Shown here: positions 30,199-35,323 of the stretch, piece by piece
Layout: each line of letters starts with the position of its first letter
Position numbering within the stretch: position 1 is the stretch's first letter
NCBI GenBank assembly: GCA_022340185.1
Contig: JAJDOK010000007.1
Location: forward strand, 1 to 64,000
Reading direction: 5' to 3'
DNA from: Salaquimonas sp.
Lineage (GTDB): Bacteria > Pseudomonadota > Alphaproteobacteria > Rhizobiales > Rhizobiaceae
DNA: 64,000 bases
Made by a program: the position numbers and the translations under genes
The notes under the pieces: generated by a model
Told to the model about the DNA's origin: nothing
What the model saw: only the letters and a program-made list of their open reading frames with translations
Database searches by the model: none

Positions 30199-32808
30199 TC
30201 ATATCGTCTCGTCTTCGCCCGGCACCAGGATTTCGCGTTTTCCCGCGTGGTTGGCCGGGCCGATCAGCTCTTCCTTTTCCATGCGTTCGATCAGCGAGGC
30301 GGCGCGGTTATAGCCGATTCCCAGGCGACGCTGGATATAGCTGGTCGATACCTTGCGATCCTTCAGCACGACCGCAACCGCCTGATCGTAGAGATCGTTG
30401 GACTGGGCCAGCGCGTCGGTGCCGGCCGGCGCGTCGCCGCCATCTTCCTCTTCTTCCTGGGTGACGGTCTCGAGATATTCCGGCACGCCCTGGGTCTTGA
30501 GATGCGCGACGACCTTTTCGACCTCGTCATCGGAGACGAAGGGCCCGTGGACGCGCTGGATACGGCCGCCGCCGGCCATATAGAGCATGTCGCCCATGCC
30601 GAGAAGCTGTTCGGCGCCCTGCTCGCCCAGAATGGTGCGGCTGTCGATCTTCGAGGTGACCTGGAAGGAGATGCGGGTCGGGAAATTGGCCTTGATCGTG
30701 CCGGTGATGACGTCGACGGACGGGCGCTGCGTCGCCATGATGACATGGATGCCGGCGGCGCGCGCCATCTGCGCCAGGCGCTGGATGGCGCCTTCGATAT
30801 CCTTGCCGGCGACCATCATCAGGTCGGCCATTTCGTCGATAATGACGACGATATAGGGCATGGGGTCGAGTTCGAGTTCCTCGGTCTCGTAGACCGCCTC
30901 GCCGGTCTGGCGGTCATAACCGGTTTGCACGGTGCGATTCAGCGTTTCGCCCTTCTTGTGCGCCTCGCCGATGCGGGTGTTGAAGCCCTCGATGTTCCTG
31001 ACCCCGAGTTTGGACATCTTGCGATAGCGTTCCTCCATCTCGCGCACGGTCCATTTGAGCGCGACGACCGCCTTTTTCGGGTCGGTAACGACCGGGGTCA
31101 GCAGATGCGGAATGCCGTCATAGATCGACAGTTCGAGCATCTTGGGGTCGATCATGATCAGGCGGACCTGCTCGGGCGCCATGCGATAGAGGATCGACAG
31201 GATCATGGTGTTGATGGCGACCGACTTGCCGGAGCCGGTGGTGCCGGCAACGAGCAGATGCGGCATCTTGGCGAGATCGGCAATCACCGGTTCGCCGCCG
31301 ATGGTCTTGCCGAGGACAAGCGACAGGCGGCCCTTGGCGGTCTCGTAGTCACTGCTCGACAGCAATTCGCGCAGATAAACGGTTTCACGACGCGAATTGG
31401 GCAATTCGATGCCGATGGCGTTGCGGCCGGGCACGACCGCGACGCGACAGGCGATCGCACTCATCGAACGGGCGATATCGTCGGCAAGACCGATGACGCG
31501 CGAGGATTTTATGCCGGGCGCGGGCTCGAGTTCGTACAAGGTAACGACCGGGCCCGGACGGACATTGATGATCTCGCCCTTGACGCCGAAATCCTCCAGC
31601 ACGCCCTCGAGCAGGCGGGCATTCTGTTCCAGCGCGTCGGGGCTGAGCGCGGCGTCGGCGCCCTGCTTCTTCGGTTCGGAAAGCATGTGTAGCTGCGGCA
31701 ATTCGAATCGGTTGTCGGAAAGCAGCGAAGTCTGGGCCTCGCGCGCGGCACGCTTTGACTGTTTGAGCTTGCCGGTCATCGGCTTGACGCGGTTGCCCGA
31801 GGCATTGTTCTCGCGGAATTGCGGTTCGAATTCCGCATCGACCAGCAGGTCACCCTGATCGTCGTCGGGATGATGGATTTCCTCGCCATAGCCTGGCGCG
31901 AAATCAGGTGCGCGCAGATAGTCACCGTCTTCACCGGTCCATTCTTCTTCCCATTCCCCGGAATCGGGGTTGCCGGCAATGGCCTGGCGTCTCGCATTGC
32001 TGGCGAGGGTGAAATCCTCCAGCCCGTCATCTGGCGGTGCGGTCAAGCTCGACCAGGCATCGGCCATTCTCGAAAAGATGGAAGGCTTGCCGGGGGCTCT
32101 CGGGCGTCGACGCAGCCTTGCACGCATCATGAAGTACCAATGGGCCAGCGCGCCGAGCGTTAGGCCGCTTTCGTCGTCGTCATCCTCGAGGATTTCGCCG
32201 GTTTCGGCATCATATTGCAGTTCATGCGTATGACGGCGACCGATCAGGCCGGCGGCATAAAGCACCAGCGGCAGCGCGGCGAGCGCGAAAGTCAGACCAA
32301 GCAGGATCGCCAGCAAACCATGCGGATAGTTGCCAATCACCAGTGCGGGAAGTTTCAGGACGAGATCGCCTGCGACGCCGCCCAGGCCGGTCGGCAGCGG
32401 CCAGCCCGACGAACGCGGCAGGCAGCCGGCGGCGGCGGCGGCCAGCAGGGTCGCCGGAAGCCAGGCGACGAGCCGGCCCTTCCATCTGCCTATTTCATGC
32501 TGGACGATCTTGAGCCAGGCCCAGACGGCGGGCGGCACAAGCGCGACAACAGCGGCAAGTCCGATAAACTGCATCATCAGGTCGGCGATGGAGGCACCGA
32601 GAAAGCCGCCGGCATTCTGCGGCACCATGCCATTGGCATTCGACAGGCTGGGATCGGCGACGTTCCAGGTGGCAAGTGCGGCGAAGACGAACAAAACGAC
32701 GGCGAGAAGCGCCAGACCCGTCAACACGCCGAACTGACGCGACAGCCTGCCGGCGATCTTTTCGGTGCGTTCATCGATCCCCGCCGACCGGATACCGGAA
32801 AGCTGCAT
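30199..32808 (-). CDS. ftsK: DNA translocase FtsK
   Basis: [23 protein letters not shown]-terminal gamma domain [21 protein letters not shown]. Confidence 0.97.
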
Positions 32809-32887: not shown

Positions 32888-32902
32888 TTAAGACCCTGTT
32901 AA
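32888..32902. promoter_or_regulatory. CtrA-type site TTAA-GACCCTG-TTAA upstream of ftsK
   Basis: Exact TTAA-N7-TTAA, 80–94 bp upstream of the ftsK start codon. Confidence 0.6.
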
Positions 32903-32943
32903 CCATGGAGGCTACCGGCCGGATATCAAAAGGTGCTCCGGAC

Positions 32944-32974
32944 AAAAAAAGGCCCGGGAACAAACCCGGGCCCA
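32944..32974 (-). terminator. Intrinsic terminator, minus strand (candidate end of the ncRNA)
   Basis: Minus strand GGGCCCGGG-TTTGTT-CCCGGGCC-TTTTTTT; no minus-strand CDS between this and the amtB terminator. Confidence 0.88.
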
Positions 32975-33122
32975 GTTGTTGGAACGGCTGGAATTTCCTG
33001 CACGTCCCGACGGGACTGTTGACCGCCCCGGCTGACCGGGACAGCAATTTCTCAATACTGTTATCAGGAGCTGTTCACGCCGGACATGGGAGTTGACTTT
33101 CCTTCGCTCTCGATAGGTTCGC
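32944..33122 (-). ncRNA. Candidate nitrogen-regulated small RNA (~180 nt)
   Basis: Sigma-54-like promoter at 33134–33148, upstream dyad at 33234–33250, internal hairpins (CCCGG-TCAG-CCGGG; GTCCC-GTC-GGGAC), intrinsic terminator at 32944. Confidence 0.6.
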
Positions 33123-33133
33123 AGGAAGAACAT

Positions 33134-33148
33134 TCAATCCGCGTGCCA
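33134..33148 (-). promoter_or_regulatory. Sigma-54-like -24/-12 promoter TGGCAC-GCGGA-TTGA
   Basis: Shares CCAGTTTGGCACGC with the glnK promoter region. Confidence 0.6.
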
Positions 33149-33233
33149 AACTGGTGTACTGTCGAGAATATGTTGTTTTATTTAGGCTTTTTGAATTCCT
33201 TCAACGAGGAGCGGCCTCAATGGCTTCCATGGA

Positions 33234-33250
33234 TGCGTATTTTCTATGCA
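33234..33250. promoter_or_regulatory. NtrC-like dyad TGC-GTATTTTCTAT-GCA
   Basis: 14/17 identical to the dyad upstream of glnK (TGCTTATTTTTTGTGCA). Confidence 0.5.
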
Positions 33251-33290: not shown

Positions 33291-33324
33291 AAAAAAAGCC
33301 GGCCCGGACAATGTCCGGGCCGGC
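33291..33324 (-). terminator. Intrinsic terminator after amtB
   Basis: Minus strand GCCGGCCCGGACATTGTCCGGGCCGGC-TTTTTTT. Confidence 0.92.
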
Positions 33325-33376: not shown

Positions 33377-34714
33377 CTAGGCAACGCTTTCGCCATGCAG
33401 GGCGATGTCGAGACCCTCTTGTTCCTCAGCATCGCTCGGGCGCAGGCCGATGACAGCCTTGATGACCATGAGGATGACGAAGGAGGCGACGGCCGTCCAT
33501 ACGATGGTTGCGATGATGCCGTAGAACTGGGTGACGATCGAGGCACCCTCACCGGCAGAGTTGATGGCCGGATCGGCGAAGACGCCCGTCAGCAGGGCGC
33601 CGACGATGCCGCCGATGCCGTGAACGCCGAAGGCGTCGAGCGAGTCGTCATAGCCAAGCATCTTCTTGAGATGCGCGGCACCCCAATAGCAGACCACGCC
33701 GGCGACGATGCCGACGATGAGGGCGCCCGTCGGATTGACGAAGCCCGAGGCCGGGGTGACGGCGACGAGGCCGGCAACCGCACCGGAAATGATGCCGAGA
33801 ACGCTTGGCTTGCCGGCGATGATCCATTCGGCGAACATCCAGGCGAGTGCCGCGGCGGCGGTGGCGACCTGCGTGTTCATCATGGCCGCACCGGCAAGGC
33901 CGTCGGCTGCCAGTTCCGAACCGGCGTTGAAGCCGAACCAGCCGACCCACAGCAGGGCAGCGCCGGTGACCGACCAGGTCAGGTCATGCGGCGCCATGTT
34001 GGCCGAACCGAAGCCCTTGCGTTTGCCGATGACCAGTGCACAGACGAGGCCGGCAACACCGGCATTGATGTGAACGACCGTGCCGCCGGCGAAGTCGAGA
34101 ACGCCTGCATCCGACAGGAAGCCGCCGCCCCATACCCAGTGAGCGATCGGCGAATAGACGATGATCGACCACAACACCATGAAGATGAGCATCGCGGAGA
34201 ACTTCATGCGCTCCGCGAACGCGCCGGTGATGAGCGCCGGCGTTATGATGGCAAAGGTCATCTGGAACATGGAGAAGACGTATTCGGGAATGGTGCCCGA
34301 AAGCGAATCGACACCAACGCCCGAGTGCATGAAGGCGGAGAAGCCGCCCATATAGGCGTTCATGGAGCCGCCATCGGTGAAGGCGATGGAATAGCCGACG
34401 ACGAACCAGACAATGGTCATCGCGCAGGTGATGGCGAAGCTCTGCATTACGGTGGCGAGCACGTTTTTCTTGCGCACCATGCCGCCATAGAACAGCGCCA
34501 GGCCCGGAATGGTCATCATGAGAACCAGCGCGGTGGAGGTCAGCATCCATGCCGTGTCGCCGGCACTCAGCGTCGGTTCAGCCTCGGCGACCACTTCGGT
34601 CGTGGTTTCCTGCGCATAGGCCATGGCCGTGGCCAAGACAGTGAACAGGCCACTGGCAGTGAGCCCCAGACCAATAGGTCCGGCGCGGGAAGGAAGTATA
34701 TCGGTAAACTTCAT
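33377..34714 (-). CDS. amtB: Ammonium transporter AmtB
   Basis: Multi-TM; NVLATVMQSFAITCAMTIVWFVVGYSIAF; HDLTWSVTGAALLWVGWFGFNAGS. Confidence 0.96.
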   Translation of the reverse strand: MKFTDILPSRAGPIGLGLTASGLFTVLATAMAYAQETTTEVVAEAEPTLSAGDTAWMLTSTALVLMMTIPGLALFYGGMVRKKNVLATVMQSFAITCAMTIVWFVVGYSIAFTDGGSMNAYMGGFSAFMHSGVGVDSLSGTIPEYVFSMFQMTFAIITPALITGAFAERMKFSAMLIFMVLWSIIVYSPIAHWVWGGGFLSDAGVLDFAGGTVVHINAGVAGLVCALVIGKRKGFGSANMAPHDLTWSVTGAALLWVGWFGFNAGSELAADGLAGAAMMNTQVATAAAALAWMFAEWIIAGKPSVLGIISGAVAGLVAVTPASGFVNPTGALIVGIVAGVVCYWGAAHLKKMLGYDDSLDAFGVHGIGGIVGALLTGVFADPAINSAGEGASIVTQFYGIIATIVWTAVASFVILMVIKAVIGLRPSDAEEQEGLDIALHGESVA

Positions 34715-34751: not shown

Positions 34752-35183
<432 letters not shown>

Positions 35184-35198
35184 TCAAATGGCGTGCCA
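35184..35198 (-). promoter_or_regulatory. Sigma-54-like promoter of glnK-amtB, TGGCAC-GCCAT-TTGA
   Basis: CCAGTTTGGCACGCCATTTGATTG upstream of glnK. Confidence 0.65.
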
Positions 35199-35306: not shown

Positions 35307-35323
35307 TGCTTATTTTTTGTGCA
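35307..35323. promoter_or_regulatory. NtrC-like dyad TGC-TTATTTTTTGT-GCA upstream of glnK
   Basis: TGC-N11-GCA about 115–120 bp upstream of the -24 element. Confidence 0.5.

Follow-up and report, generated by a model that had tools for sequence, protein, structure and literature searches.

What does a nitrogen-type control region do downstream of amtB, facing ftsK, when no gene follows it? The window analysed here, a stretch of 64,000 nt from Salaquimonas sp., carries a glnK-amtB operon in the conserved order tesB, glnK, amtB, ftsK. Between amtB and ftsK it contains a second minus-strand terminator, and upstream of that a sigma-54-like element and a dyad of the kind bound by NtrC (Table 1). 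The original prediction had described these elements and interpreted them as a dedicated small RNA (sRNA) gene of ~180 nt under NtrC/sigma-54 control. All three elements were found where they had been placed. We also agree that there is no credible CDS between the two terminators: the sole minus-strand ORF of at least 60 aa (33133–32912) begins within the promoter and reads through the terminator, and no credible CDS was found on this strand between orphan promoter and terminator. The two signals bracket a noncoding stretch within the size range of sRNAs (~50–300 nt). A consensus terminator scan gave three matches in the region against a shuffle mean of 2.9, which is no excess; the terminator ending at 32944 was taken as real because it is strong and kept in relatives.

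Table 1. Features of the amtB-ftsK interval and its surroundings (positions in the window)
Feature	Position	Strand	Remark
ftsK	30199..32808	(-)	conserved downstream neighbour
Putative remnant of the 3′ UTR of the last amt gene	32939..33039	(-)	73% identity to the G003 sequence immediately following the amtB stop codon
Intrinsic terminator (stem 32973–32950 and T run)	32944..32974	(-)	common to G003, G001 and G004
Predicted orphan transcript, ~180 nt	32944..33122	(-)	start site placed from the promoter position
Stretch between putative glnK2-leader and amt 3′ UTR remnants	33040..33118	(-)	probable deletion junction in or beside it
Orphan glnK-type sigma-54 promoter TGGCACGCGGATTGA	33134..33148	(-)	best match: second glnK promoter of same-genus G002
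NtrC-type enhancer dyad TGCATAGAAAATACGCA (TGC-N11-GCA)	33234..33250	(-)	motif fit
Terminator of present amtB (13-bp perfect inverted repeat 33298–33324 and T run)	33291..33324	(-)	
amtB, first operon	33377..34714	(-)	body of Mesorhizobium type
glnK, first operon	34752..35090	(-)	92% identical to glnK1 of G002
Sigma-54 promoter of first glnK, TGGCACGCCATTTGA	35184..35198	(-)	
NtrC-type dyad of first glnK, TGCACAAAAAATAAGCA	35307..35323	(-)	

The orphan promoter closely resembles that of the first glnK. As predicted, the two have the 14-mer CCAGTTTGGCACGC in common and their dyads are identical at 14 of 17 positions; a 24-nt repeat with 83% identity is also shared by the two promoter regions. 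The spacings originally given, 95 bp for the orphan and 118 bp for glnK, are right as distances from dyad centre to promoter and correspond to 102 and 125 bp from start to start. This puts the orphan dyad at −102, and the dyads of relatives' glnK genes lie mostly at −90 to −154. The resemblance exceeds chance: in the 3.37-Mb genome, the strict core TTTGGCACGCNNNTTGA (up to one mismatch) occurs at exactly two sites, the orphan and glnK promoters, and the looser family form TTGGCAYGNNNNTTGA (no mismatches) at the same two only. Markov resampling of the 569-nt amtB-ftsK interval (20,000 draws) gave no TTTGGCACGN4TTGA and 17 occurrences of TGGCACN5TTGA.

Comparison with relatives supports the reading of 33148–33134 as an NtrC/sigma-54 promoter. 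The orphan site has the correctly spaced core TGGCACG-N4-TTGA that is common to the glnK promoters found in 26 relatives, all of which read TTGA in a scan that accepted TTGA or TTGC. We have therefore dropped the earlier caveat that the −12 element reads GA where the consensus has GC. An exact TGC-N11-GCA dyad lies up to 200 nt upstream in 15 of 27 family glnK promoters (1.1 expected from shuffles), and this motif has been described and footprinted for NtrC of S. meliloti at the nfeR1 promoter (PMC10746234). The orphan core continues as TTGAATG, as in other second or single glnK copies. Before TTGA the orphan promoter has A, and every one of the 26 promoters from relatives has C or T there; this may be a mild sign of relaxed constraint. 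By a 43-position profile of family promoters the orphan promoter ranked third within the window; the site ranked second, 21585 (+), has TTCGA as its −12 element and was dismissed.

We compared the tesB-ftsK interval among relatives and found that its content varies. Most genomes carry one glnK-amtB. The arrangement is glnK-amt2 in G004 (same genus) and G231, glnK-amt2-glnK-amtB in G075, G167, G018 and G144, and tesB-glnK-amtB-glnK-amt2-ftsK in G237. Same-genus G002 has tesB-glnK1-amtB-glnK2-amt2 on a contig that ends inside amt2. The interval thus appears as a hotspot of gain, loss and swapping of ammonium-transporter operons across several genera. At L096 (G002), L127, L128, L129, L132 and L133 with L145, the space between tesB and ftsK holds tandem glnK-amt operons whose Amt proteins are of two types, with the order varying. 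Almost all glnK copies, whether first or second, have a sigma-54 core ~80–120 nt ahead of the ATG; some glnK-amt2 copies carry TTGT or TGGCAT in its place. An intact tandem operon with a sigma-54 promoter of its own therefore exists in relatives at the very place of the orphan unit. The promoter pair on which the original prediction relied does recur in these genomes, where, however, its second member serves glnK2. Among 54 intervals from the last amt gene to ftsK, only that of the window, a long one, has a glnK-type promoter without glnK. Conservation of an amtB-ftsK sRNA unit in related genomes was not borne out: the complete unit was absent from all 397 other family genomes searched and from the 53 other amt-ftsK intervals.

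Both ends of the orphan unit resemble the ends of a glnK-amt operon. We aligned window positions 33300–33060 to the upstream regions of 36 glnK copies, a set that included the window's own and in which one genome was represented twice. The highest score came from the second glnK of G002, which, like the orphan promoter, stands immediately behind amtB; the alignment spans about −60 to +20, and 0 of 200 shuffles reached its score (z 6.8). Next came the promoter of the window's own glnK, with nearly the same score (z 6.4). At the other end, the match of 33039–32939 to the sequence after amtB of same-genus G003 had an E value of 1.5×10−7, and by shuffling the z scores were 20.7 against the amtB 3′ UTR of G003 and 10.8 against that of G001, the two nearest relatives of this 3′ UTR. 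The orphan 3′ part and these amtB 3′ UTRs share the stretch CCAACAACTGGG, which leads into the terminator, and the terminator is also common to amt2 of G004. The palindrome TCCCGTCGGGA (33015–33005) occurs once in the window and has near-identical copies in the amt 3′ UTRs of L097, L003, L131 and L127; as a conserved element of amt 3′ UTRs it was rejected, being present in few relatives only.

Between these ends, no homologue of the middle ~78 nt (33118–33040) was found in the family genomes searched, and a translated search for remnants of glnK2 or amt gave nothing above shuffles. A GlnK-like stretch of 17 aa (E 0.011) was rejected, as shuffles reached this value in 9 of 100 cases for sense-strand GlnK and in 52 of 100 for any match. 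One 15-mer is identical to amtB codons of G002 and may be a weak trace of coding sequence.

With a 5′ end that matches a second glnK promoter and a 3′ end that matches an amt 3′ UTR and terminator, the unit looks like the two ends of an operon without its genes. We conclude that it is probably (about three chances in four) what is left of a tandem second glnK-amt operon, and that it is perhaps still transcribed. In the NtrC/RpoN-dependent glnK-amtB operon of rhizobia, promoter core, TGC-N11-GCA dyad, spacing, and amt-type 3′ UTR and terminator are like those of the orphan unit, but glnK and amt stand between promoter and terminator, both of which the orphan unit lacks. A second operon would once have sat between amtB and ftsK, and deletion of glnK2 and its amt, of either the amtB or the amt2 type, would have left enhancer, sigma-54 promoter and 3′ terminator behind. 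Judged by the lengths of these genes in G002 and G004, the loss would amount to ~1.7–1.8 kb. None of the genomes examined shows an intermediate of the loss, nor did they include a close strain in which the operon is intact. The assembly contains one glnK and one glnB-like gene, and no second glnK or further Amt was found in it; since it is a draft (139 contigs, 83.8% complete), the missing genes could sit elsewhere in the genome.

Because promoter, dyad and terminator are intact apart from the A before TTGA, transcription under nitrogen limitation is likely. Phosphorylated NtrC and RpoN may still fire the orphan promoter in this state, and the noncoding ~180-nt transcript would then arise as a by-product with no kept function. 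This part of the original prediction, a transcript of ~180 nt dependent on NtrC and RpoN, remains plausible on the present analysis.

The same data were weighed against other origins of the unit. The shared 14-mer, the 24-nt repeat and the second place of the window's own glnK promoter in the alignment might be explained if the orphan promoter were a recent local copy of that promoter, arisen through gene conversion or duplication, and had never served a second glnK at this locus. We regard this as very improbable. The similarity is confined to the region common to glnK promoters and the leaders differ downstream: that of the window's first glnK goes with the leader of the first glnK of G002, whereas the orphan has the TTGAATG of second or single copies. 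A local copy would also fail to account for the 3′ end of amt type that follows after 80 nt. Least probable of all is an artefact in which the real genome has a full second operon that the assembly skipped. The fragmentation and incompleteness of the draft would allow such an error, but if a repeat had been collapsed, the two copies would be joined within homologous glnK or amt sequence, producing a chimeric operon; here a leader is joined to a 3′ UTR with no repeat in common, and the flanking synteny matches that of relatives.

There remains the dedicated sRNA gene of the original prediction, a genuine regulator of ~180 nt activated by NtrC and RpoN that would pair with nitrogen-related mRNAs as an NrsZ-like RNA and might itself derive from an operon remnant. 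All three signals (promoter, enhancer and terminator) are undamaged and in working spacing, the predicted RNA has a more stable fold than its shuffled versions (fold energy z −2.64), and sRNAs controlled in this way exist elsewhere, as NrsZ illustrates (PMC9308961). Much of the predicted structure, however, is that of the apparently inherited terminator and amt 3′ UTR hairpins, which make up the structured 3′ half, and the unit has no counterpart in the other family genomes searched. A search of the whole window against Rfam at gathering scores returned a tRNA-Gly alone and no RNA family for the orphan unit. Since the second promoter of relatives drives glnK2, the 3′ half corresponds to an amt 3′ UTR with its terminator, and a promoter without glnK occurs in this one alone of the 54 amt-ftsK intervals, a dedicated sRNA gene explains the locus less well than an operon relic does, and we consider it rather unlikely. 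We rate as unlikely, and slightly below it, that a new sRNA was born by the decay itself, loss of glnK2-amt having put an amt 3′ UTR near an NtrC/sigma-54 promoter and the RNA having been kept for a regulatory role.

If the unit is an operon relic, as we favour, loss of an operon can leave behind what looks like an sRNA gene: a regulated promoter followed by a terminator, with nothing encoded in between. Such loss would give rise to false sRNA predictions, but it could also be a way in which sRNAs are born; if transcribed, the orphan would be a natural case of a fresh noncoding RNA driven by NtrC and RpoN. Two known nitrogen sRNAs offer partial parallels. NrsZ of Pseudomonas aeruginosa is induced by NtrBC and RpoN (PMC9308961). 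The orphan RNA would be alike in control logic, as a noncoding RNA driven by NtrBC/RpoN beside nitrogen-control genes, but the locus differs, and the orphan is not conserved among the genomes searched. GlnZ of enterobacteria is an sRNA from the glnA 3′ UTR that is cut from the intact mRNA (PMC9731577). Like GlnZ, the orphan RNA would owe its 3′ part to a nitrogen gene under NtrC control, namely to its 3′ UTR and terminator; in contrast to GlnZ, the body of the mRNA is gone and the promoter stands close to the 3′ UTR. The main text of two sRNA surveys in Sinorhizobium and other Rhizobiales mentions neither amtB nor ftsK.

The genes on either side of the orphan unit showed features of their own. 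The first ~40 residues of AmtB resemble those of same-genus G002 (MKFxDILPSxAG...AQETTTE), and the body of the protein is 72–79% identical to Mesorhizobium-type AmtB and ~55–57% identical to AmtB of same-genus relatives. A search of genome contigs with AmtB returned mostly distant relatives, in keeping with the Mesorhizobium affinity of the body. These comparisons suggest that AmtB is a mosaic in which the gene body was replaced. Upstream of ftsK, a CtrA-like box TTAACAGGGTCTTAACC lies at 32902–32886, and a TTAA-N7-TTAACC-like element occurs at the same place before ftsK in most relatives examined; ftsK of S. meliloti has been listed with CtrA motifs (PMC3616915).
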